Program-made: the position numbers and the translations under genes
Notes under the pieces: generated by a model
Seen by the model: the letters and a program-made list of their open reading frames with translations, nothing else
What the model was told of the DNA's origin: nothing
Databases searched by the model: none
Shown: piece by piece, positions 31,227 to 60,209 of the stretch
How the letters are laid out: each line of letters begins with the position of its first letter
Numbering within the stretch: the first letter of the stretch is position 1
Source of the DNA: Xanthomarina arctica
GTDB lineage: Bacteria > Bacteroidota > Bacteroidia > Flavobacteriales > Flavobacteriaceae
Reading direction: 5' to 3'
Assembly: GCF_014638915.1 (NCBI RefSeq)
Contig: NZ_BMFQ01000004.1
Span: 248,001 to 312,000, forward strand
Length of the DNA: 64,000 bases

Positions 31227-31256
31227 CGCAAGTTTTTTATTTTAATCGCATCTAAA
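31227..31256 (+). promoter_or_regulatory. ECF-type promoter site A (before the sigma gene)
   Basis: CGCAAGT (31227-31233), 15 bases, then CATCTAAA (31249-31256). The same CAAGT-N15-CATCTAAA layout occurs at three further starts in this cluster. It lies 28 bp before the sigma-factor start, consistent with autoregulation. Confidence 0.8.
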
Positions 31257-31284
31257 ACGTGATGGCTAATTAAAAAATTAATTT

Positions 31285-31863
31285 TTGACTGAAAACGACT
31301 TTATAGAAAACTTAAAGAATAAAAGGCAAGATGCTTATGGCATGCTTATAGAAAACTTTCAAAATAAAGTATTTGCAACATGTTTGTCTTTTGTGCCAAA
31401 TAGAGAAGATGCTGAAGATATAGCTCAGGAGGTTTTTATAGAAGTTTTTAATTCCATCCATAAATTTAAAGGCGATTCTAAATTGTCTACATGGATTTAT
31501 AAGATAACTACAAACAAATGTTTAGAGTTTATAAGAAAAAGAAATACTAAAAAACGCTTTGCTTTTTTACAGTCCATTACTGGTAATGGCATGCCACTAG
31601 ACAAAACAAATTACTTTACGGAAATGAATCACCCAGGAATTCAATTAGAAAATAAAGAAACTAGTGAAACCTTATATTATGCTATTAACAAACTTCCAGA
31701 AACTCAAAAAGTGGTTTATACGTTACATAAAATAGATTGTTTAAGCTATCAAGAAATTAGCGATGTTATAGATAAAAGTGTGTCTTCGGTAGAATCCTTA
31801 ATGTTTAGGGCAAAAAATAATTTGAAAAAATTACTCTATAATTATTATAAAAATGAAAGTTAA
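31285..31863 (+). CDS. ECF RNA polymerase sigma factor of the EF-hand/YHYH/CotH cluster
   Basis: A 192-residue ECF sigma factor. Region 2 is visible in 'NREDAEDIAQEVFIEVFNSI' and 'LSTWIYKITTNKCLEFIRKR', region 4 in 'SYQEISDVIDKSVSSVESLM'. The start is most likely TTG at 31285: the protein aligns from there, an upstream ATG at 31262 is in frame with an immediate stop, and the next ATG would cut into region 2. The TTG start would limit expression. Site A directly upstream matches three other promoters in the cluster. It is followed by an anti-sigma-like gene and a Spy-like gene. The inducing signal is unknown. Confidence 0.88.
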   Translation: MTENDFIENLKNKRQDAYGMLIENFQNKVFATCLSFVPNREDAEDIAQEVFIEVFNSIHKFKGDSKLSTWIYKITTNKCLEFIRKRNTKKRFAFLQSITGNGMPLDKTNYFTEMNHPGIQLENKETSETLYYAINKLPETQKVVYTLHKIDCLSYQEISDVIDKSVSSVESLMFRAKNNLKKLLYNYYKNES

Positions 31864-31864
31864 G

Positions 31865-31894
31865 CGCAAGTTTTTAATTAAAATCACATCTAAA
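31865..31894 (+). promoter_or_regulatory. ECF-type promoter site B (before the anti-sigma-like gene)
   Basis: CGCAAGT (31865-31871), 15 bases, then CATCTAAA (31887-31894). It begins 2 bp after the sigma stop. The -10 motif ends only 8 bp before the next ATG, so the transcript would be almost leaderless. Confidence 0.78.
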
Positions 31895-31902
31895 TTTTAA
31901 CT

Positions 31903-32217
31903 ATGGAAACAAATAACGACATAAATCAAAAAGTTCAAAACACATTAAAGAGTTTTGATTCTATTACCGACACTAAGGTTTCACCTTTTTTTAAAGATAA
32001 AACCATGCAACTTCTGTTTTCTGAAAAAGAAGAAAAAGAGTCCTTTGTATTTTCTTGGTTTTCACCAAAACTGCAATTTGCTACTTTAGTTTGTTTTGTG
32101 CTTTTAAATGTGTTTGCTTATGTTAAAATAAATTCAAACACCTATAATAGCAATGTGCAAGATTTTGCAGAAACATATGGCTTATCAACAGATAACGACA
32201 CCTATTTATTAAATTAA
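31903..32217 (+). CDS. Small single-pass membrane protein, probable anti-sigma factor
   Basis: A 104-residue protein with a cytoplasmic N-terminal half (about 1-60), one transmembrane segment (about 66-84, 'FATLVCFVLLNVFAYVKI') and a short extracytoplasmic tail. It has no clear conserved family motif. Position directly after an ECF sigma gene, type II-like topology and size all fit an anti-sigma factor that holds the sigma at the membrane. Site B lies just in front. Its stop overlaps an ATG of the next frame by one base. Function is inferred from context. Confidence 0.6.
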   Translation: METNNDINQKVQNTLKSFDSITDTKVSPFFKDKTMQLLFSEKEEKESFVFSWFSPKLQFATLVCFVLLNVFAYVKINSNTYNSNVQDFAETYGLSTDNDTYLLN

Positions 32218-32222
32218 TGATT

Positions 32223-32756
32223 ATGAAAAAAAATACAATTTTATATATTTTATTAGCTTTTTTAATTGTCTTTAATGGATTTTTTCTTTTTTATTTCTTA
32301 GGAAACACCAATGATACTGTTGAAAGAGGAGGTGGAGATCCAATGAGCTTTGTCATGAAGCAATTAAATTTTAATGCGTTACAATTAGAGGAAATGGAAG
32401 GTGTCAATAAGAAGCATCACCAAAAAATGATGCGTATTAATGATGATTTAAAGGAATTAAAAGATGCTTTATTTAATAATCTTTCTGATGTTATTATTGA
32501 TAACAAAACTGTAGATTCTATTGCGACCTTAATAGGCAAAAAGCAAAAAGCTAAAGAAATTGAGGCCTTTTCTCATTTTAGAAGCATTCAAGAATTATGT
32601 GATGATAAGCAAAAACAAAAATTTGAAGAAATAATAAAAGATGCGCTTCGTCGAGGAGACAGTGAAAATAGACCTCCGCAAGGAAAAGGTCCAGATGGTC
32701 ATAGGCCACCTCCACCTTCAGAACAAGGCGGGAAAATGCCACCTCCAAAAGGTTAA
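32223..32756 (+). CDS. Spy/ZraP/CnrX-like periplasmic metal-sensor-type protein
   Basis: About 177 residues: one N-terminal membrane anchor (about 5-25), then a helical periplasmic domain ('FVMKQLNFNALQLEEMEGVN', 'HHQKMMRINDDLKELKDALF', 'DDKQKQKFEEIIKDALR') of the Spy/CpxP/ZraP fold, and a Pro/Gly-rich tail. Such proteins bind metals or unfolded proteins and control anti-sigma/sigma pairs (CnrX with CnrY/CnrH). Two start codons are possible (32217 and 32223); the second gives the normal M-K-K signal-anchor start. It is coupled to the anti-sigma-like gene and followed by a terminator. Metal specificity is unknown. Confidence 0.7.
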   Translation: MKKNTILYILLAFLIVFNGFFLFYFLGNTNDTVERGGGDPMSFVMKQLNFNALQLEEMEGVNKKHHQKMMRINDDLKELKDALFNNLSDVIIDNKTVDSIATLIGKKQKAKEIEAFSHFRSIQELCDDKQKQKFEEIIKDALRRGDSENRPPQGKGPDGHRPPPPSEQGGKMPPPKG

Positions 32757-32776
32757 TTATTTATAAAACCATTTTA

Positions 32777-32807
32777 GACTCTCAATTTCTTGAGGGTCTT
32801 TTTTTTT
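32777..32807 (+). terminator. Terminator after the Spy-like gene
   Basis: GACTCTCAA and TTGAGGGTC pair (one G-T wobble) around TTTC, followed by nine T. It ends the sigma/anti-sigma/Spy unit. Confidence 0.88.
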
Positions 32808-32830
32808 GGCTTTTATTTAACAAGAACGAC

Positions 32831-32860
32831 CACAAGTAATTTAATCTATTGCCATCTAAA
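32831..32860 (+). promoter_or_regulatory. ECF-type promoter site C (before the small EF-hand gene)
   Basis: CACAAGT (32831-32837), 15 bases, then CATCTAAA (32853-32860). It lies 28 bp before the ATG, the same distance as site A from its gene, and 24 bp after the previous terminator, so this is a true transcription start. Confidence 0.8.
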
Positions 32861-32888
32861 GGTATATAACAAATAAAAATTTAAAGAG

Positions 32889-33170
32889 ATGAACCGCAAC
32901 ACATTTAAAACAATCGTATTAGTTTTTGGATTAACCGTTTTTATGTCAATTGACACAAATGCGCAATCTCAAAACAAACAACAAAAATCGCCACCATCAA
33001 CCAGTGAATTATTAAAACAGATGGATTCTGATGAAGATGGGCAATTATCAGAAAAAGAAGTAAAAGGGCCACTTAAAGATAGCTTTGATACTATTGATAA
33101 AAATGAGGATGGGTACTTATCAGAAGAAGAATTAGATAATGCGCCAAAACCAAAAAGAAAAAGCAAGTAA
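32889..33170 (+). CDS. Small secreted EF-hand protein (two hands)
   Basis: A 93-residue protein with a signal peptide (about 1-25, ...MSIDTNA-Q) and one EF-hand pair. The loops are 46-57 (D-S-D-E-D-G-Q-L-S-E-K-E) and 70-81 (D-K-N-E-D-G-Y-L-S-E-E-E), both with all Ca ligands. The tail is basic (P-K-R-K-S-K). It should bind two Ca ions in the periplasm or outside the cell. The pair is closely similar to the C-terminal pair of the YHYH protein at 33835-34947. It is driven by site C and followed by a terminator, so it can be made alone. Confidence 0.85.
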   Translation: MNRNTFKTIVLVFGLTVFMSIDTNAQSQNKQQKSPPSTSELLKQMDSDEDGQLSEKEVKGPLKDSFDTIDKNEDGYLSEEELDNAPKPKRKSK

Positions 33171-33220
33171 ATAAATAATTGAAATATATGAAGTAAAAAT
33201 AGTTTGAATTAGTCTTATTA

Positions 33221-33252
33221 AAAGCTTCGTTATTACTGACGAAGCTTTTTTT
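33221..33252 (+). terminator. Terminator after the small EF-hand gene
   Basis: AAAGCTTCGT and ACGAAGCTTT form a perfect 10-bp stem with an 8-base loop and a T7 run. Confidence 0.88.
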
Positions 33253-33288
33253 AAAATTATAACTTAATTTAAAATCATAAAAACTAAA

Positions 33289-33828
33289 ATGAAAAATAAC
33301 TATTTAAAAGTTACCATCACCATTTTTACATTACTACTAACTATCGGCATCTGTGCTCAAGGACCTCCAGGGGGAGGAGGAGGAGGAAGATGAGGCAAAG
33401 GTAAAGGTCAAGCTCCTGAAGGTGGAGGAAAACCAGACGCTTACAAAATATTTACAATGTTAGATGTTAATAATGATAAGCTTATTGATATGGATGAAGT
33501 TTCTAAAGATGAAAGAGGCAAAATAGCAGAAAATTTTAATGAGATTGATTCTAATGATGATGAATATATCGATTTAGAAGAATTAGAAGCCTTTATAAAT
33601 GAAGGGAAGCCTAAACAGATATCAGCCAAAAATCTAATTAAGGATATTGACGATAATGGCGATGGTACCTTAAACGAACTAGAAATAGCAGCTAAAGGAG
33701 AGTTAGAATTATCAAATAATTTTACTGTTATAGATACAAATCAAGATCGTGAACTTGATATAGAAGAATTAAAAGGATTCTTTGAAGAAAACGAGGAGCA
33801 ACCAAAACGTAAAAAAAGAGATAGATAA
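33289..33828 (+). pseudogene. Secreted four-EF-hand protein split by an in-frame TGA
   Basis: From ATG 33289 the frame gives a normal signal peptide (M-K-N-N-Y-L-K-V...I-C-A-Q) and a Gly-rich linker, then TGA at codon 35 (33391-33393). The same frame continues as G-K-G-K-G-Q-A-P-E and four EF-hands with loops near residues 59-70, 87-98, 121-132 and 149-160, ending at 33828. Frame is kept exactly, so one substitution (for example GGA to TGA in the Gly run) explains it. An internal ATG at 33457 could make the EF-hand part, but without a signal peptide. Alternatives are read-through, a recent mutation or a sequencing error. The stop is 6 bp before the next gene. Confidence 0.8.
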
Positions 33829-33834
33829 TTTAAA

Positions 33835-34947
33835 ATGAAAACATATTATATAATTATATCGGTTCTTTTATTAGGTGTCACTTTTGGTTGCAAAAGTAAA
33901 GTGGACGCCCACAGTCATGATGGTTTACAAAATCATTCTCATGAAAGCAAAGATGTTTCTAGAAATGTGACTAATTATTTTGATGATTACGATTTAGAAG
34001 ATGTAGCTTTTGGAACCAAAACTAGAGTGACTATTACTGCAAAAACACGAATTATGGTTACCAATTCTATCCCAAACCATAAAACTGGAGAATTTCCAAA
34101 TCAAGGTAATCCCAATACAATTTCGGCACAAAATAAAACCTATACATTTCCTTTAAATGCAAAATACACAGGAAAAGCACAATGGATGCGAGAGCCAGGA
34201 ATAGCATTAAACGGTATTAAATTTGAACCTGGAACAGCAGAGGTTGTTGAATGCGAAACAGGAGAAAATTACCGTGTTGAAGCCATACAAAATGTTATCG
34301 ATTTAGGTTTAGACTTTAATCACGCACATGTGCAACCAACTGGAGAATATCATTATCATGGTACACCAACTTCCATTATAGAAACCTTTGATACAGGAGA
34401 AGATTTAGTACATATTGGTTTTGCACACGATGGTTTTCCTATGTATTATTCAAAAAGTGGAAAATATAAACCAAGTTTTAAATTGTTAGATGGAAATAGA
34501 GAAGGAGAGGATTGCACCTATACAACACATCTAACTATAGATATCTCGGTTGGAGGACATCATGATGGTACTTATGGTTCTGATTACGAATATGTAAATG
34601 GTTCTGGTGATTTAGATGAATGTAATGGAATTACAATAGATGGAAAATATATGTATTTAGTGACTAATGAGTTTCCTTATATAGGCCGTTGTGTTATGGG
34701 GGAAGTTGAGCAACAACAGCAAGGGCCTAGAAACGGACAAGCTCAGGGAGGAAAACCAAGCTTTAAATACCTTCTAAATGAAATGGATTCCAATAAAGAC
34801 GGAAAACTTTCAGCTAATGAGGTTAAAGGGTCAATAAAACAGGATTTTACAAAAATTGATGTAAATACTGATGGTTTTATTTCTAAAGAAGAATTAGAAA
34901 ATATTCAAAAACAAAATAAACAACAACCAAAAGGTGGAAGAATTTAA
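33835..34947 (+). CDS. YHYH-domain lipoprotein with C-terminal EF-hand pair
   Basis: A 370-residue lipoprotein (lipobox G18-C19) beginning with a His-rich stretch (DAHSHDGLQNHSHESKD). The YHYH domain spans about 70-295, with F-N-H-A-H (161-165) and Y172-H-Y-H175 plus 'FAHDGFPMYY' and 'GGHHDGTYGSDYEY'. A Gln-rich linker leads to two EF-hands (loops 318-329 and 342-353) very similar to the separate EF-hand protein at 32889-33170. The YHYH family has no proven function; its invariant His/Tyr pattern suggests metal binding. It follows the split EF-hand gene by 6 bp. Confidence 0.82.
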   Translation: MKTYYIIISVLLLGVTFGCKSKVDAHSHDGLQNHSHESKDVSRNVTNYFDDYDLEDVAFGTKTRVTITAKTRIMVTNSIPNHKTGEFPNQGNPNTISAQNKTYTFPLNAKYTGKAQWMREPGIALNGIKFEPGTAEVVECETGENYRVEAIQNVIDLGLDFNHAHVQPTGEYHYHGTPTSIIETFDTGEDLVHIGFAHDGFPMYYSKSGKYKPSFKLLDGNREGEDCTYTTHLTIDISVGGHHDGTYGSDYEYVNGSGDLDECNGITIDGKYMYLVTNEFPYIGRCVMGEVEQQQQGPRNGQAQGGKPSFKYLLNEMDSNKDGKLSANEVKGSIKQDFTKIDVNTDGFISKEELENIQKQNKQQPKGGRI

Positions 34948-34959
34948 TTTTTAAAATAG

Positions 34960-34989
34960 CGCAAGTTATTTCAAAATATATCATCTAAA
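34960..34989 (+). promoter_or_regulatory. ECF-type promoter site D (before the second YHYH gene)
   Basis: CGCAAGT (34960-34966), 15 bases, then CATCTAAA (34982-34989), 24 bp before the ATG. AGCGCAAGT here is identical over 9 bases to site B. It should drive the YHYH-YwqK-SCO-CotH unit. Confidence 0.8.
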
Positions 34990-35013: not shown

Positions 35014-35784
35014 ATGAAAAACCTATTTAAATTAACGTTTCTTACTCTGTTTTTAATAACAGGATTTATCGCTTGTTCTAGTGATGATGACGTTTCCTCA
35101 ACGGAAGAAGTAAATGAAGAGAATGAAGAAAATGAAGTTGTAACACAATTACATGCTGCTTATGCCGCATTTAATACAGAAGCTACAGATATTTATTTAT
35201 CTAATAATGGAGCAACAGTAACCATAGAAACAACGGGGTTACCAGATCATGAAACAGTATACTGGGGTGTTGGTAATGAGTTGTATAGAGACGAGCCTGA
35301 TGTAGCATTAACACCTTCTATTATGTCGAGTAATAACAATGCTGTAACTATTACAGTAGATGCCGTGCCAAATTTAATAGGGAGTACAGTAAGCACAAAT
35401 TTCGATACCATAGGTATTGCTGTTAGTGGCGCTTCGATATTTAATGATCAAGAAGGTGGTGGAGCTTTGGATGCTGCAGCAGCTAGTTTAGATTGGACAG
35501 GAGCTCATATTGGTCCAGGAGTGTATCATTATCATTTAGAGCCAAAAGCATTCACTGACGACGATGAAAACTTAGTAGGAGTATTACTAGACGGTGTTTT
35601 TCTTTATGGAAGAAAATGTATCGAAACTGGAACTTATCCTACAGATTTAGATGCTTCTGGTGGTCATACAACGGCAACTCAATATACAGATGGTGTTGAA
35701 GAGTATCACTATCATATAATTAACGAATTATATTCTAATACTGGTTCATACATAGCATTTGCTGGACCTTACCAAGGTTACTAA
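35014..35784 (+). CDS. YHYH-domain lipoprotein
   Basis: A 256-residue lipoprotein with lipobox A20-C21 followed by S-S-D-D-D, a Bacteroidetes surface-export-type acidic stretch, then an acidic Glu/Asn linker. The YHYH domain fills the rest: 'GPGVYHYHLEPKAF', 'LVGVLLDGVFLYGRKC' and a second 'EYHYHIINELY' near the C-terminus. It shares the domain with the preceding lipoprotein but lacks EF-hands. The biochemical role is unknown. It is the first gene after site D and its stop directly abuts the next ATG, so the downstream genes are translationally close. Confidence 0.82.
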   Translation: MKNLFKLTFLTLFLITGFIACSSDDDVSSTEEVNEENEENEVVTQLHAAYAAFNTEATDIYLSNNGATVTIETTGLPDHETVYWGVGNELYRDEPDVALTPSIMSSNNNAVTITVDAVPNLIGSTVSTNFDTIGIAVSGASIFNDQEGGGALDAAAASLDWTGAHIGPGVYHYHLEPKAFTDDDENLVGVLLDGVFLYGRKCIETGTYPTDLDASGGHTTATQYTDGVEEYHYHIINELYSNTGSYIAFAGPYQGY

Positions 35785-36405
35785 ATGAAAGCATTTAAAC
35801 TATCTTTATTATTTTATTCAGTTTTTCTTATGGGTTGTAATTCTACAACGCATAAGAAGAATACTGCTACTAGTAATTTTAATAAAGTACAAATAGATAC
35901 AACTCGAATTATTAATAAGGATAGTTTAATTTTAAATGGAAATACTGGAGTTTGGACTTATAATCAAACACCTTTTACTGGTTTTGCGGTTCAGTTTTAT
36001 GCCAATAATTCTTTAAAAGAAAAGACAGGCTTTTTTAATGGTAAAAAAGAAGGCGTTTACCATGTTTGGTTCGATAACGGAGAACTTAAATTAGAATCCA
36101 ATTATAATCAAAACTCACTGGAAGGATCTTACAAATCTTGGTGGATTAATGGTGTTTTGGCTTCTGAAACTAATTATGTAGAAGGAAAAAAGCAAGGTGA
36201 AGAACGCCATTGGTTTTCTACTGGTAAGATTTCTAAAATAAGAAATTTATTAAATAACCAAGAGGATGGCCTACAACAAGCTTGGCTGGAAAACGGAAAA
36301 CTTTATGTAAACTACGAAGCAAAAGATGGACGTATTTTTGGCATGCGACGAGCTAATTCCTGCTATCAATTAAAAGATGAAGTTGTAATAAGAAAAGAAA
36401 TTTAA
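35785..36405 (+). CDS. YwqK/MORN-like repeat lipoprotein
   Basis: A 206-residue lipoprotein (lipobox G17-C18). It contains repeats of about 22-24 residues of the type G-x-Y-x-x-W-x-x-N-G-x-L-x-x-E-x-x-Y, e.g. 'KEGVYHVWFDNGELKLESNY', 'LEGSYKSWWINGVLASETNY' and 'KQGEERHWFSTGKISKIRNL'. These repeats are annotated as YwqK-family antitoxin or MORN-like; in this envelope setting a structural or binding role is more likely than an antitoxin one. It directly follows the YHYH gene (no gap) and precedes the SCO gene by 4 bp. Confidence 0.75.
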   Translation: MKAFKLSLLFYSVFLMGCNSTTHKKNTATSNFNKVQIDTTRIINKDSLILNGNTGVWTYNQTPFTGFAVQFYANNSLKEKTGFFNGKKEGVYHVWFDNGELKLESNYNQNSLEGSYKSWWINGVLASETNYVEGKKQGEERHWFSTGKISKIRNLLNNQEDGLQQAWLENGKLYVNYEAKDGRIFGMRRANSCYQLKDEVVIRKEI

Positions 36406-36409
36406 TTTT

Positions 36410-37078
36410 ATGAAATATCTAAGTATTCTTTTGGTTCTATTTTTCATAAGCTGTAATAAGGATGTGAAAAAAGAAAATATGGTTGTTGTGGAAGACAGCC
36501 GAGTTGATTATTTGCCATATTATAATGAGGAATCTTTTACTCCAAATTGGATGACACCAAATTCGACGGAAGAAAAAGCATTTCATAAAATTCCAGACTT
36601 TTCACTAACAAATCAATTAGGTGAAACAGTTAATCAAAATACGTTTGAGAATAAAATTTACATAACCGATTTCTTTTTTACTAGTTGCCCTGGTATTTGT
36701 CCGAAAATGACTGATAACATGTTTAAAATACAGGAAGCCTTTAAAGACGATGAGGATGTTTTGTTGCTGTCACATTCCGTTATGCCAACTACAGACTCTG
36801 TGTCTGTTTTAAAAACGTATGCTAAAACCTATAATGTTATGGACCATAAATGGCATTTGGTTACTGGGGATAAAAATGAAATTTACAGTTTAGGAAGAGA
36901 TCAATATTTTGTGGAAAATGATTTAGGAGAACCAAAAAATATTGACGATTTTCTGCATACCGAAAACTTTTTACTAATAGATAAAAACAAACATATTAGA
37001 GGTATTTATAATGGTTTAAATAGAGCTTCGGTTGCACAATTAATTACAGATATTAAATCGCTTAAATTAGAAAATTAA
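36410..37078 (+). CDS. SCO/PrrC-family copper-binding thioredoxin-fold lipoprotein
   Basis: A 222-residue lipoprotein (lipobox S14-C15). The thioredoxin-like fold carries the SCO metal/redox motif C-P-G-I-C-P in 'DFFFTSCPGICPKMTDNM' and the third ligand His in 'DDFLHTENFLLID'. SCO proteins deliver copper to CuA centres or act as thiol reductases. No CuA oxidase gene is nearby; instead it lies among YHYH, EF-hand and CotH genes, so it may serve metal loading or redox care of these exported proteins. The gap to the CotH gene is 14 bp. Confidence 0.88.
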   Translation: MKYLSILLVLFFISCNKDVKKENMVVVEDSRVDYLPYYNEESFTPNWMTPNSTEEKAFHKIPDFSLTNQLGETVNQNTFENKIYITDFFFTSCPGICPKMTDNMFKIQEAFKDDEDVLLLSHSVMPTTDSVSVLKTYAKTYNVMDHKWHLVTGDKNEIYSLGRDQYFVENDLGEPKNIDDFLHTENFLLIDKNKHIRGIYNGLNRASVAQLITDIKSLKLEN

Positions 37079-37092
37079 TTATAATTAAAAAC

Positions 37093-39417
37093 ATGAAAAA
37101 AATAACTACTCTACTATTGCTTTTACTCGCTTTTACAAATATGTATTCGCAAGATTTTTATGACGCAGAAACGGTTCAAACCATCGAAATAGTTTTCGCA
37201 GAAAGCAACTGGGATGCCTTACTAGATGCAGAGAAGGCCGGAGATAATAATTATACAGAAGCTGTTTCTGTAACAATTAACGGAACTACTTTTAATCAAG
37301 TAGGCGTTAAATATAAAGGGAATAGTTCTTATAATGCCAATCAGACTAAAAATCCATTTCATATTGAATTAGATACCTATGTAGATCAAAATTATGGAGG
37401 ATATACGGATATCAAACTGTCCAATGTTATTTTTGATCCTTCATTTGTAAGAGAAGCAGTAGCCTATAATATAGTTCGTAATTATATGGATGCACCACAA
37501 GCTAATTATGCCAATATTTATGTTAATGGTACTTTAATTGGGTTGTATACAAATGTAGAGTCAATTTCTAAAAAGTTTGTCAATAATCATTTTGGATCAA
37601 ATGAGAATGCTTTTTTTAGTTGTAGTCCTCCAGATGGTGCAGGGCCACAATCTACAAATTTGCCCAACTTGTCTTATTTAGGAACCAGTAGTTCAAGTTA
37701 TGATGATGCTTATGAAATAAAATCAGATGATGATGACGATCCAACTGTTGCCGAAGCTCATTGGGATGATTTAATAACACTAACAAATACATTGAATAAT
37801 AATGTGACTGATATTGAAACAGTGTTGGATGTAGATAGAGCTATTTGGATGCTTGCTTTCGATAATGTTATGGTAAATTTAGATAGTTACATCGGACAAT
37901 TCAAACAAAATTATTACTTATATAAAGATGATTCTGATAGATTTAATGCTGTAGTTTGGGATTTAAATATGTCCTTCGGAACATTTAGTCAAACTGGAGA
38001 AAGTAGTGGTGGGCCAGGAGGTCCAGGTGGCCCAGGAAGTGGATTAAATTCAACTACTGAAAAGGCGCAATTGGACCATTTATTGCATGACACGAGTAGC
38101 GATTTCCCATTAGTTTCTGAATTATTGGCAATCCCTCGTTATAAAAAAATGTATTTAGCTCATTATAAAACCATATTAACTGAGCAAATAACAAATTCAA
38201 ATTACTTAACATTAGCTAATGATTATCAAAGTATTATTGATGCATCAGTGCAGGCAGATGTAAATAAATTTTATACATATGCACAATTTAATAGTAATAT
38301 CAATTCTGATGTTAATTTAGGAACGAACACTGCTAGTGGCTTAACACTCTTAATGAATGCAAGAGGAACTTACCTTTCTGCCTTGTCAGATTTTACAGTT
38401 ACTCAACCAACTATTAGTGATATAATGGAAGATAATTCTAATCCTGAAATTGGTTCTGTAATAAATATTACTAGTAATGTTGTTAATACAAATTCAGACG
38501 CCGTATTTTTAGGATATAGAACCAATCAAAATGCACCTTTTACAAAAACTTTAATGTACGATGATGGAGCACATAACGATGGCAATGCCAACGACGGTGT
38601 TTATGGTCTTGATTTAACAATTTCAGAGGAATACACACAGTATTATATTTATGCTGAAAACAACAATATTGGAGCTTTTTCTCCTGCGAGAGCGGAACAT
38701 GAGTTTTATACGATAAATGCTACTTACCAAACTTTAACAATTGGAGATTTGGTTATCAATGAAATTATGGCTTCCAATGAAACAACTGTTACAGATCAAG
38801 ATGGTGAGTATGACGATTGGTTAGAACTGTATAATAATAGTTCTGAAACCTTGAGTTTAGATAATTTATACTTGTCTGATGATCCAACAGACTTATTAGC
38901 TTGGCAATTTCCTTCAGGAATAACTATTGCCCCAAATAGCTATTTAATAGTTTGGTGTGATAAAGATGATGATCAAGATGGTTTACATGCAGATATCAAA
39001 TTTTCTGCAGGAGGAGAGAGTGCTATTCTATCTTATGCAGATGGTACCATTATCGAAGATATTACTTTTGGAGAACAAGAAGATGATATGGGCTACGCCA
39101 GAATTCCAAATGGAACAGGAAGTTTTGTTATCCAAGCGCCAACTTTTGGAGCCAATAATGAAACATTATCTGTAGAAAACTATAGCTTATTAGACACTTT
39201 AAAAGTGTTTCCTAACCCTACAAACAATCTTTTAACTATTCAGAATACCTCAGATAGTATAGAAAGTATTACAGTTTATAACATGCAAGGGCAACTATTA
39301 TTTCAAAATAAATATAATAACAGTAATCGTATAGAATTAGATTTTTCCTCTTACTCAAAAGGAGTTTATATGGTTCATGTTAATAATACAACAACATTAA
39401 AGATTATAAGAAATTAA
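37093..39417 (+). CDS. T9SS-secreted CotH-family kinase with lamin-tail domain
   Basis: A 774-residue secreted protein: signal peptide (1-19, ...TNMYS-Q), a CotH kinase domain (about 25-440: 'VGVKYKGNSSY', 'LSNVIFDPSFVREAVAYNIV', 'IWMLAFDNVMVNLDSY', 'AVVWDLNMSFGTF'), a Gly/Pro stretch, a C-terminal lamin-tail-like domain (about 555-690, 'VINEIMASNETTVTDQDGEY') and a T9SS type A sorting domain ('VFPNPTNNLLTIQN' to the end). CotH enzymes are atypical secreted kinases; in spores they phosphorylate coat proteins. The target here is unknown; the acidic EF-hand or Ser-rich neighbours are candidates. It is last in the site-D unit and followed by a terminator. Confidence 0.85.
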   Translation: MKKITTLLLLLLAFTNMYSQDFYDAETVQTIEIVFAESNWDALLDAEKAGDNNYTEAVSVTINGTTFNQVGVKYKGNSSYNANQTKNPFHIELDTYVDQNYGGYTDIKLSNVIFDPSFVREAVAYNIVRNYMDAPQANYANIYVNGTLIGLYTNVESISKKFVNNHFGSNENAFFSCSPPDGAGPQSTNLPNLSYLGTSSSSYDDAYEIKSDDDDDPTVAEAHWDDLITLTNTLNNNVTDIETVLDVDRAIWMLAFDNVMVNLDSYIGQFKQNYYLYKDDSDRFNAVVWDLNMSFGTFSQTGESSGGPGGPGGPGSGLNSTTEKAQLDHLLHDTSSDFPLVSELLAIPRYKKMYLAHYKTILTEQITNSNYLTLANDYQSIIDASVQADVNKFYTYAQFNSNINSDVNLGTNTASGLTLLMNARGTYLSALSDFTVTQPTISDIMEDNSNPEIGSVINITSNVVNTNSDAVFLGYRTNQNAPFTKTLMYDDGAHNDGNANDGVYGLDLTISEEYTQYYIYAENNNIGAFSPARAEHEFYTINATYQTLTIGDLVINEIMASNETTVTDQDGEYDDWLELYNNSSETLSLDNLYLSDDPTDLLAWQFPSGITIAPNSYLIVWCDKDDDQDGLHADIKFSAGGESAILSYADGTIIEDITFGEQEDDMGYARIPNGTGSFVIQAPTFGANNETLSVENYSLLDTLKVFPNPTNNLLTIQNTSDSIESITVYNMQGQLLFQNKYNNSNRIELDFSSYSKGVYMVHVNNTTTLKIIRN

Positions 39418-39437
39418 GTTTGGTTTATTTTTTTTTG

Positions 39438-39469
39438 AAAGCTTAGCTGTAATGGCTAAGCTTTTTTTT
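39438..39469 (+). terminator. Terminator after the CotH gene
   Basis: AAAGCTTAGC and GCTAAGCTTT form a perfect 10-bp stem around a 7-base loop with a T8 tail, closing the ECF cluster. Confidence 0.9.
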
Positions 39470-40549: not shown

Positions 40550-40579
40550 AAAAAGGAAGCCATTGGGCTTCCTTTTTTT
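40548..40579. terminator. Bidirectional terminator between converging genes
   Basis: A7-GGAAGCC and GGCTTCC-T7 form a perfect 14-bp stem with loop ATTG. It occupies the whole gap between the two converging stops and serves both strands. Confidence 0.92.
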
Positions 40580-41021
40580 ATGGTTTATTTTTATGTTCAG
40601 AATGTTGCCTTTTTCTGTATTCTTCAAACATTTTTTTATTGAAATCGTCTTCAGCCTTTTTTAAAAGCACAATTTTTTTTGCCGAAATAACTTTTTGTAA
40701 ATCGGTTATAAGATTGTTATAAAGCTGACTTCTTTTATTATTGAAGGTTTTCATTTCAACAAGCATAGCGTTGGCTTCCACTTCAGTTAAATTAGTATAA
40801 TCAATATCGCTTTTGTCTTTATGAGCTTCTTCTCTCAAAGCACTTTTGCTTTCATCGAACTTATTATAAATAGGCCAAAATTTTTCAGCTTCAGATTTAG
40901 AAAGATCTAATTGCTCTGTAATGTAAGCGATTTTAAGTGCTTTAATTTTTTCGTGTTTATCCTGAGAAAAACCTGTTAGACTTAGGAGTATAAACAACAA
41001 TAATAGGATACTTTTTTTCAT
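40578..41021 (-). CDS. Spy/CpxP-like periplasmic helical protein of the second ECF module
   Basis: A 147-residue protein with a signal peptide (1-19, ...LTGFS-Q) and an all-helical mature part: 'AYITEQLDLSKSEAEKFWPI', then 'NKFDESKSALREE', a helix ending in 'NNKRSQLYNNLITDLQKVIS', and a basic His-rich tail. The 'LSKSEAEKFWPIYNKF' pattern is typical of Bacteroidetes Spy-like proteins found downstream of ECF sigma/anti-sigma pairs. It may act as stress or metal sensor or chaperone. It lies 13 bp after the anti-sigma-like gene. Confidence 0.7.
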   Translation of the reverse strand: MKKSILLLLFILLSLTGFSQDKHEKIKALKIAYITEQLDLSKSEAEKFWPIYNKFDESKSALREEAHKDKSDIDYTNLTEVEANAMLVEMKTFNNKRSQLYNNLITDLQKVISAKKIVLLKKAEDDFNKKMFEEYRKRQHSEHKNKP

Positions 41022-41034
41022 TTAGTTTATAATG

Positions 41035-41532
41035 TTATTCAGATATGTAATCTTCAAAATCTGATGAGTTGTATAAATAGTTTTCAAGTGAGGCATCACT
41101 TATGGATTCTCCTAAAATAAAAGTTGAAATGTCAATATCTTCAATTATTTCGGCTTCCATATTGGAAGTTTCAAATTCTTGGTTAGAAACATAATTCTCT
41201 AACGCCTCATTTTCTATGGAGTCGAAGGTTATGTTGTTATCAAAAACTTGGAGATTAAATAATAATATAATGGTTGCCGCAATACTTGATACGGTAATAA
41301 AAGTGCGTGTCGAAATTAAAGACCTTACTTTAGTTTCTTTATTATTCGAAATTTGTTGAAGCACGCGATCCTCAAGAGTTTCAAAATAAATTTCAGGGGT
41401 TTTAAAAACTGATTTGTTTATTTTTTCATCTAGATGAATTTGTGCCATAATAGTATCTTCCAAATTGGAAAAATAATTTTCAGGTGTTTTAAGCCCTGAA
41501 TGCTCTATGTTATGTATCTTATTCTTTTTCAT
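41035..41532 (-). CDS. Probable anti-sigma factor of the second ECF module
   Basis: A 165-residue protein with a soluble N-terminal part (about 1-88), one transmembrane segment (about 90-108, 'FITVSSIAATIILLFNL') and an acidic extracytoplasmic tail. The N-terminus contains two similar repeats ('LKTPENYFSNLEDTIMAQI', 'FKTPEIYFETLEDRVLQQI'), a pattern seen in Bacteroidetes membrane anti-sigma proteins. It starts 33 bp after the ECF sigma gene and is followed by the Spy-like gene. The role is inferred from gene order and topology. Confidence 0.68.
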   Translation of the reverse strand: MKKNKIHNIEHSGLKTPENYFSNLEDTIMAQIHLDEKINKSVFKTPEIYFETLEDRVLQQISNNKETKVRSLISTRTFITVSSIAATIILLFNLQVFDNNITFDSIENEALENYVSNQEFETSNMEAEIIEDIDISTFILGESISDASLENYLYNSSDFEDYISE

Positions 41533-41565
41533 CTTATCGTTTAGACTATTTAAAAGGTTAATAGT

Positions 41566-42108
41566 TTAATGATTAGTTAAATAGTCTTGTATTTTTTTGG
41601 TGGCAATGTGGTAGGATGCTTTTAGAGCTCCTTCACTTGTTTCAAGTATTAAGGACATGTCTTTATATTTGATGTCTTGAAAATACTTCATATTAAATAC
41701 TAGTTGCTGTTTCTCGGGCAATTTTGCTATGGCTTCTTGTAATTTGTATTGAATGTCGTCTCCTTCAAAATAAACATCGGCCTTCAGGTTATCTATAGCT
41801 AATTGTTGCATTTCTTGGTTTGAAATTTGAGATTGTTTTGCTCTCTTCTTTATAAAGGTTAAAGATTCGTTGGTTGCAATTCTGTACATCCAAGAATAGA
41901 GTTTACTTTCGCCTTTAAAGCTTTGTATGTTTTTATAAACCTTTATAAAAGTATTTTGAAGGACATCGTCTGAATCATCATGAGATTTTACTATATGTCT
42001 TATATGCCAATATAATCGCTCTTTATAAAGGGTCATTAACTCCCTGAAAGCAGCTTCTTTATTTTGGTTGGATTGAAGTTGTTCTAATAATTTAGATTCG
42101 TCTATCAC
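41566..42108 (-). CDS. ECF RNA polymerase sigma factor, second module
   Basis: A 180-residue ECF sigma factor. Region 2 shows 'DDVLQNTFIKVYKNIQSFKG' and 'LYSWMYRIATNESLTFIKKR', region 4 'KYKDMSLILETSEGALKASY'. It heads a three-gene leftward unit with an anti-sigma-like and a Spy-like gene. The order matches the sigma module at 31.3 kb, but the upstream DNA does not contain the CAAGT-N15-CATCTAAA motif, so this sigma probably reads different promoters. Start ATG at 42108. The 280 bp upstream hold no gene, only the terminator of the next unit. Confidence 0.9.
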   Translation of the reverse strand: MIDESKLLEQLQSNQNKEAAFRELMTLYKERLYWHIRHIVKSHDDSDDVLQNTFIKVYKNIQSFKGESKLYSWMYRIATNESLTFIKKRAKQSQISNQEMQQLAIDNLKADVYFEGDDIQYKLQEAIAKLPEKQQLVFNMKYFQDIKYKDMSLILETSEGALKASYHIATKKIQDYLTNH

Positions 42109-60162: not shown

Positions 60163-60209
60163 TTGGCTTGAAATTTGCTGTATATTTATTAAATTTATAA
60201 AAACTTTTT

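Follow-up and report, generated by a model that had tools for sequence, protein, structure and literature searches.

The question raised by this locus is which protein reads a bipartite element that occurs in four exact copies within a 64,000-nucleotide stretch of the Xanthomarina arctica genome (NCBI RefSeq assembly GCF_014638915.1, contig NZ_BMFQ01000004.1, positions 248,001 to 312,000 of the forward strand; hereafter the window). The element, CAAGT-N15-CATCTAAA, stands in front of a gene for an extracytoplasmic function (ECF) sigma factor (site A), an anti-sigma-like gene (site B), an EF-hand gene (site C) and a unit of YHYH, MORN, SCO and CotH genes (site D). Our analysis suggests, with a probability of about 0.78, that the four sites are core promoters of the one ECF sigma factor encoded at 31285, which would work in a circuit with an anti-sigma factor and a sensor of the CnrX/Spy fold.

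The element in the window, the host genome and related loci

All four copies are on the forward strand, and the genes behind them are those named in a preliminary description of this DNA, which had further claimed that the sites lie 8 to 28 bp before gene starts and are very unlikely to have arisen by chance. Both claims hold: the gaps between motif and start codon are 28 bp for A (TTG at 31285), 8 bp for B (ATG at 31903), 28 bp for C (ATG at 32889) and 24 bp for D (ATG at 35014), and 100 shuffles of the window gave a mean of 0 exact copies. The coordinates first assigned to the sites included two extra leading bases; the exact matches are given in Table 1. The description had also proposed a search of both strands of the host genome (3.9 Mb), and the motif proved not to be frequent there, with five exact copies, all of them on the forward strand; a reversed control motif gave none. 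The fifth copy (C4:39414) is antisense within a 175-amino-acid reading frame and scored 13.8 bits (E 0.28) against a profile derived from relatives; this position and the low score rule it out as a member of the regulon. When two mismatches were allowed, 273 matches were obtained versus 200 for the control, indicating that loose matches in the genome are mostly noise. The profile, R1, was a sequence-only profile made from 90 sites of relatives (drawn from 101 non-redundant sites among the 132 described below) and from none of the window, and its E-values are rough. On the host genome, ranks 1 to 4 of R1 were exactly the four window sites (5.1e-8 for B, 4.1e-7 for D, 4.8e-7 for A and 1.0e-5 for C), followed by an E-value of 0.013 at rank 5. 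Two contexts among the next-best places (E about 0.01; L114 and L115) were inspected, and neither resembled a part of the regulon. As far as R1 detects, the regulon of the host genome appears to be confined to about 8 kb.

Examination of orthologous sigma genes in relatives, likewise proposed beforehand, was positive. A search with the sigma factor returned 60 loci, of which 48 were used (61-78% identity, titled as Flavobacteriaceae genera or as less precise Bacteroidota bins), giving 49 loci together with the window. The remaining 12 (L078 and L080-L090) were left out of the counts as distant sigma relatives (24-49% identity, with L089 covering 83 residues), and none of them holds an exact motif. 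The motif recurs in the 48 related loci as 132 exact copies, all on the strand of the sigma gene and none on the other. Copies with one mismatch numbered 27 on the plus and 1 on the minus strand (0 and 3 for the reversed control), while those with two mismatches (10 and 25) were as numerous as in the control and are therefore noise. The spacer was N15 in 136 copies, window included, and N14 in one, which by eye is a degenerate site A of L048; no other length between 8 and 24 was found on the plus strand, and the same scan of the minus strand gave 3 copies at N23. The flanks of the 132 copies are also constrained, with C at -2 in 124, a purine at -1 in 132 and T directly after CAAGT in 124, and G precedes CATCTAAA in 79. 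The consensus is about GC[AG]CAAGTTTTT, a gap of about 9, and GCATCTAAA.

A weight matrix with a threshold of at least 14 bits gave 166 matches on the plus strand of the 49 loci and none on the minus strand; because the matrix was trained on the loci that it scanned, independent evidence comes only from the opposite strand, the reversed control and the sites of the window. The scan extended up to 10 kb ahead of the sigma gene, yet none of the 166 matches was further than 77 bp from it on that side. Among the 78 target genes with an assignable start, 75 have the site 15-45 nt ahead of it, and 34 of the 49 loci have a site 1.4-1.7 kb further on. Outside the main locus, the other genomes with an orthologue contain 14 exact sites (L092-L104 and L109), of which 9 precede a gene and 5 do not. 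One locus, from Lacinutrix venerupis (L056, 10001-10570), has a sigma frame with two in-frame stops near its start, yet holds four exact sites.

The motif also follows the sigma factor across genomes. An orthologue was found in 25 of the 199 genomes of the family searched (E<=1.8e-76, the next best match being 1.2e-41). These 25 genomes contain 79 exact motifs, with at least one in 24, at least two in 19 and at least three in 18; the 174 genomes without the sigma factor contain 29, with at least one in 26, two in 3 and at least three in 0. The reversed control gave 15 copies in the 25 genomes and 43 in the 174 others. Among the family genomes searched, at least three exact copies occurred only where the sigma factor is present. 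An R1 match below E 1e-4 was obtained in 23 of the 24 other genomes with an orthologue versus 1 of 28 chosen from the 174 without. Beside the diverged orthologue of G086, site B is retained as CAAGG, and no site A was seen; in G188, site A is retained with CAAGA and site B with CAAGG and CATCTAAC. In a more distant homologue (L108 of G076, 47% identity), the three regulator genes are kept (the sensor by eye), the anti-sigma gene overlaps the sigma gene, and no motif was found in the locus. The view that the sites form one promoter class of the neighbouring sigma factor is thus strongly supported at the level of sequence, by the position, strand and spacing kept in relatives and by the co-occurrence with the sigma factor.

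Organization of the locus and predicted leader lengths

The sigma protein contains Sigma70_r2 and r4_2 over its 192 amino acids and no other domain family, as expected of an ECF (group IV) sigma factor, and is only distantly similar to CnrH (4cxf, E 4.9e-7). A residue pattern of the recognition helix, considered as a possible explanation of the -35 sequence, was matched in 9 of 49 cases and supports no claim. The sensor gene overlaps the anti-sigma-like gene by one base. Between 31100 and 42500, 8 terminator-like hairpins with a T run were found, compared with a mean of 4.8 in shuffles; those after the sensor and CotH genes suggest that the regulator genes form one unit with the targets behind them.

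Table 1. Elements and genes of the locus (positions in the window)
Feature	Position	Strand	Support
Site A, predicted promoter of sigma gene	31229..31256	+	exact motif; R1 rank 3
ECF sigma factor, 192 aa, TTG start	31285..31863	+	Sigma70_r2, r4_2; nearest solved structure E. coli sigma-E, E 1.1e-22
Site B, predicted promoter of anti-sigma and sensor genes	31867..31894	+	exact motif; R1 rank 1
Anti-sigma-like protein, 104 aa, two short helices, probable membrane helix, short tail	31903..32217	+	
Membrane-anchored CnrX/Spy-like protein, putative periplasmic sensor, 179 aa	32217..32756	+	
Terminator-like hairpin with T run, end of regulator unit, 3' of sensor gene	32776..32799	+	
Site C, predicted promoter of EF-hand gene	32833..32860	+	exact motif; R1 rank 4
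EF-hand protein, 93 aa	32889..33170	+	EF-hand Pfam matches
YHYH protein, C-terminal EF-hand, 370 aa	33835..34947	+	YHYH PF14240 E 4.9e-52
Site D, predicted promoter of YHYH-MORN-SCO-CotH unit	34962..34989	+	exact motif; R1 rank 2
YHYH protein, 256 aa	35014..35784	+	YHYH E 1.6e-7
MORN_2 protein (YwqK-like)	35785..36405	+	MORN_2 E 9.6e-9
SCO1/SenC protein	36410..37078	+	PF02630 E 9.2e-25
CotH kinase-like protein, lamin-tail domain, type IX secretion system (T9SS) sorting tail	37093..39417	+	PF08757 E 3.8e-49, PF00932, PF18962
Terminator-like hairpin, end of D unit, 3' of CotH gene	39437..39465	+	

Site B is present in all 49 loci and site A in 28. On a tree of the sigma factor (48 clade members and 3 outgroup rows, with L056 left out due to the early stops in its sigma frame), site A requires at least 4 gains or losses, only one of them enforced by well-supported branches; site B, being present in every locus, requires none. 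The two sites also differ from each other in their distance to the start codon. The first in-frame ATG follows B by a median of 9.5 nt, and by no more than 13 nt in 34 of 48 loci, whereas none of the 78 target sites is this close (median 26 nt; Mann-Whitney p 2e-13), and site A has a median of 29 nt, with at most 13 nt in 2 of 27 cases, in both of which the start chosen was an upstream TTG. No start could be assigned for one A site, one B site and 11 of 89 target sites. Transcription from ECF promoters usually starts some 5-8 nt past the -10 element, and with so short a gap the RNA derived from B should be nearly leaderless. In a mapping study of Flavobacterium psychrophilum, leaderless messages made up 5.5% and the median leader was 24 nt (PMC9723704). 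The match to the sigma factor starts at a TTG in 46 of 49 loci; in the remaining three (including L037) it begins later and a TTG is in the expected place by eye. An anti-sigma-like gene was called in 47 of 49 loci; control of their own genes and an anti-sigma gene nearby are usual for ECF sigma factors. In several B sites (e.g., L036, L047, L060 and L066), the spacer contains by eye an inverted repeat, AAGTTTTnAAAACTT, beside the -35 element, which is absent in the window and is possibly a second signal.

In the profile scan of the window, no site was found directly ahead of the first YHYH gene (33835) or of the reading frame at 33289. The latter, an EF-hand frame (33289-33828), is interrupted by an in-frame TGA at 33391-33393; in relatives such as L034 and L037 it is uninterrupted and preceded by its own site, which is missing in the window. 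About 10 kb from the first module, on the minus strand (40578-42108), are genes for a second ECF sigma factor, an anti-sigma-like protein and a small secreted protein. As had been noted before, no motif precedes this sigma gene (42108): on the minus strand of the window the highest score is 6.5 (at 60177), versus 32-41 for the four sites. The two partner genes of the second sigma factor adjoin the first module in 26 and 28 of the 49 loci, respectively.

Proposed circuit, its signal and the alternatives

The roles of the two proteins encoded behind site B are suggested by gene order, topology and fold. The model of the anti-sigma-like protein, for which a 47-row alignment was made, has helices at 4-19, 28-40, 55-76 and 79-91. 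In this predicted topology a pair of helices is accompanied by a probable membrane helix and a short tail, which is reminiscent of CnrY, where such a pair wraps around the sigma factor (PMC7406223). The sensor was aligned for 46 of the 47 called genes, with L075 left out. Among these orthologues, LTXXQ was matched at E<=1 in 31 (best 6e-6) and Metal_resist in 26 (best 4e-8), and the window's own protein matched neither; a profile search gave Spy (3oeo, E 2.4e-4). The first 8 Foldseek matches of the sensor model (predicted local distance difference test, pLDDT, 82) were all CnrX (template modelling score 0.78-0.83 by target length; best E 5.6e-3, score 0.82); CpxP was next, with CnrX and Spy further down. 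The protein is membrane-anchored and of apparent CnrX fold, as in CnrYXH-type systems. The residues kept among the 46 orthologues include H67 (44), M71 (39), C128 (40) and H120 (29), and H67, M71 and C128 are plausible metal ligands.

In the circuit that we propose, the short membrane anti-sigma factor would hold the sigma factor at rest, and the membrane-anchored CnrX/Spy-fold protein would respond to a signal in the periplasm, most likely a metal, possibly copper, leading to release of the sigma factor. The freed sigma factor would then transcribe its targets, the EF-hand gene from C and the YHYH-MORN-SCO-CotH unit from D. If the sites are promoters, it follows that A would form a positive loop on the sigma gene, optional in the clade, and B a negative loop on the anti-sigma and sensor genes, present in every locus seen. 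The nearly leaderless message predicted from B, together with the TTG start of the sigma gene, suggests a layout that favours the anti-sigma over the sigma factor and hence a self-limiting response.

The choice of signal is drawn from the targets. In relatives, sites also precede an MbnP gene followed by a di-haem peroxidase gene (L102), CCP_MauG genes (L101, L132 and L133), YHYH (L094) and CotH (L045, and L096 by eye). SCO1 and MbnP/di-haem peroxidase pairs are copper-associated, and copper is therefore our best guess. On the minus strand of L094, the YHYH gene is followed by ArsR-like and arsenite-transporter-like frames (by eye), and weaker outside sites in two genomes precede the genes L130 1873-2511 and L131 1436-2092, which appear by eye to be one secreted family of unknown kind and have no Pfam match. 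The fullest form of the proposal, a copper-responsive ECF system of Flavobacteriaceae with a fixed core consisting, instead of positive autoregulation, of a nearly leaderless sigma-dependent promoter between the sigma and anti-sigma genes, paired with a TTG-started sigma gene, is put forward tentatively and is rather doubtful as a whole. If true, a self-limiting pulse would be built into the sequence, and control of a largely undescribed envelope copper pathway (YHYH, EF-hand, CotH, SCO1 and MbnP/di-haem peroxidase) would have been found. The analysis ties together a sigma factor, its promoter sequence, a likely anti-sigma factor, a likely sensor and targets across 49 loci, and gives YHYH proteins a regulatory context and a testable signal. 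The invariant promoter of the inhibitor, set against the optional promoter of the sigma gene, makes a clear prediction on response dynamics. Bacteroidota ECF promoters are poorly charted, and only 6% of ECF genes in this phylum have a class I anti-sigma gene nearby (PMC7406223).

Other readings of the sites have to be weighed against these proposals. Chance or a mobile repeat can be rejected, since exact copies are not in excess elsewhere in the genome, the spacer sequence and flanks are variable, and the place of the sites is kept in 48 relatives. It is improbable that the sites are promoters or operators of another regulator, either a different ECF sigma factor or a DNA-binding activator, for which the neighbouring sigma gene would merely be one target. 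Such a regulator would fit the lack of site A in 21 of 49 loci, where the sigma gene falls outside the set, the strong site in a genome without an orthologue (G163), and the 26 of 174 sigma-less genomes with at least one exact copy, although the reversed control was equally common in the latter. However, among the family genomes searched, three or more exact copies are confined to those holding this sigma factor, every one of the 49 loci has a site ahead of the anti-sigma gene, and the far homologue L108 keeps the three regulator genes and not the motif. The element itself is also like a core promoter, being asymmetric, one-stranded, fixed in spacing and close to the start in nearly all targets (75 of 78). 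A separate purpose for B, such as pausing or blocking polymerase that comes from A, or yielding an RNA whose leader is too short for translation, is unlikely as well, even though 11 of 48 loci have the first in-frame ATG 3-6 nt past the motif, no later than the expected transcription start; the five loci in which it is at 3 nt have a second ATG at 9. B shares strand, spacing and flanks with the other sites and has the top score in the window genome, it would be the only sigma-dependent input to the regulator genes in the 21 loci without A, and Corynebacterium glutamicum provides a known case of a sigma-dependent promoter that serves only the anti-sigma gene (PMC3489674).

As to the signal, a real but lesser possibility is that the sensor, being Spy/CpxP-like, reports misfolded envelope proteins and that the regulon serves envelope repair with no metal involved. 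The LTXXQ matches in 31 of 46 orthologues, Spy as the best profile match, the position of CpxP directly after CnrX by fold, and the many targets that look secreted or lipidated by eye are consistent with this. The eight leading fold matches to CnrX, the conserved candidate ligands H67, M71 and C128, and the presence of SCO1, MbnP and di-haem peroxidases point instead to metal handling, and neither chaperones nor proteases were noticed among the targets inspected.

Several observations weigh against the circuit that we favour. Fewer than three exact motifs are present in 7 of the 25 genomes with an orthologue, and G086 has none. G163, without an orthologue, has a strong single R1 match (E 1.9e-5); this site (L105, G163:C17) is 90 bp ahead of a 233-amino-acid frame of unknown kind. 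G038, the one other genome searched from this genus, lacks both the motif and a sigma match at E<=1e-20, indicating that the system is patchy. The anti-sigma-like protein has no Pfam or NCBIfam match, nor any other sequence match, and its AlphaFold model is weak (mean pLDDT 68), and the sensor has no Foldseek match at E<=0.001. The metal signal is deduced from gene content and fold, and the targets in relatives include a sulfatase (L092, and L093 by eye) and a PAP2-family protein (L095). Finally, in the putative promoters the -35 (AAG) and -10 (CATCTAAA) elements are without AAC and CGT, the early ECF hallmarks, which are no longer required (PMC8103513).

Comparison with known systems

In the titles and abstract openings of the literature matches listed, in which few subscription papers are covered, the motif, the sigma clade and a YHYH-CotH regulon of Flavobacteriaceae are not named, and a search of the same coverage combining YHYH, CotH and Flavobacteriaceae gave no match. 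The closest solved sigma factor by sequence is sigma-E (RpoE) of E. coli, whose consensus is GGAACTT-N15/16-TCTRA. The spacing is the same as that of GCAAGTT-N15-TCTAAA here, but G and C are exchanged in the -35 element, and the anti-sigma factor and sensor differ. Flavobacterial ECF-type promoters are also described in the study of F. psychrophilum, in which a mapped class, SM6, includes one before a sigma/anti-sigma pair (PMC9723704). In SM6 the -10 box is CGT and several targets belong to the T9SS, whereas CGT is absent from the present motif, behind which no genes of the T9SS machinery were seen.

In C. glutamicum, rshA alone has a SigH-dependent promoter (PMC3489674); the anti-sigma gene, which lies behind the sigma gene, is thus transcribed with the help of the sigma factor, as is predicted for B here. 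The same paper describes cotranscription of the two genes from four housekeeping promoters and rshA transcripts that start 62 and 66 nt before the start codon; here, in contrast, site A precedes the sigma gene in 28 of 49 loci, and the message from B would be nearly leaderless. CnrYXH of Cupriavidus metallidurans, with the sigma factor CnrH, the class II anti-sigma factor CnrY and the sensor CnrX, is a three-gene regulator like the one predicted here, although its gene order is Y-X-H and that of the present locus is sigma, anti-sigma, sensor. Its target is a resistance-nodulation-division (RND) metal efflux pump, whereas the targets here are YHYH, EF-hand, MORN_2, SCO1 and CotH genes. In the cnr system, the anti-sigma gene cnrY has a CnrH-dependent promoter some 24 bp ahead of it, and cnrC has another (PMC9045368), in parallel with site B and sites C and D, respectively. 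The promoters of cnr and C. glutamicum thus provide a precedent for the negative loop, and what looks new in the present system is the fixed site B with an optional site A, the near-leaderless message and the set of targets.

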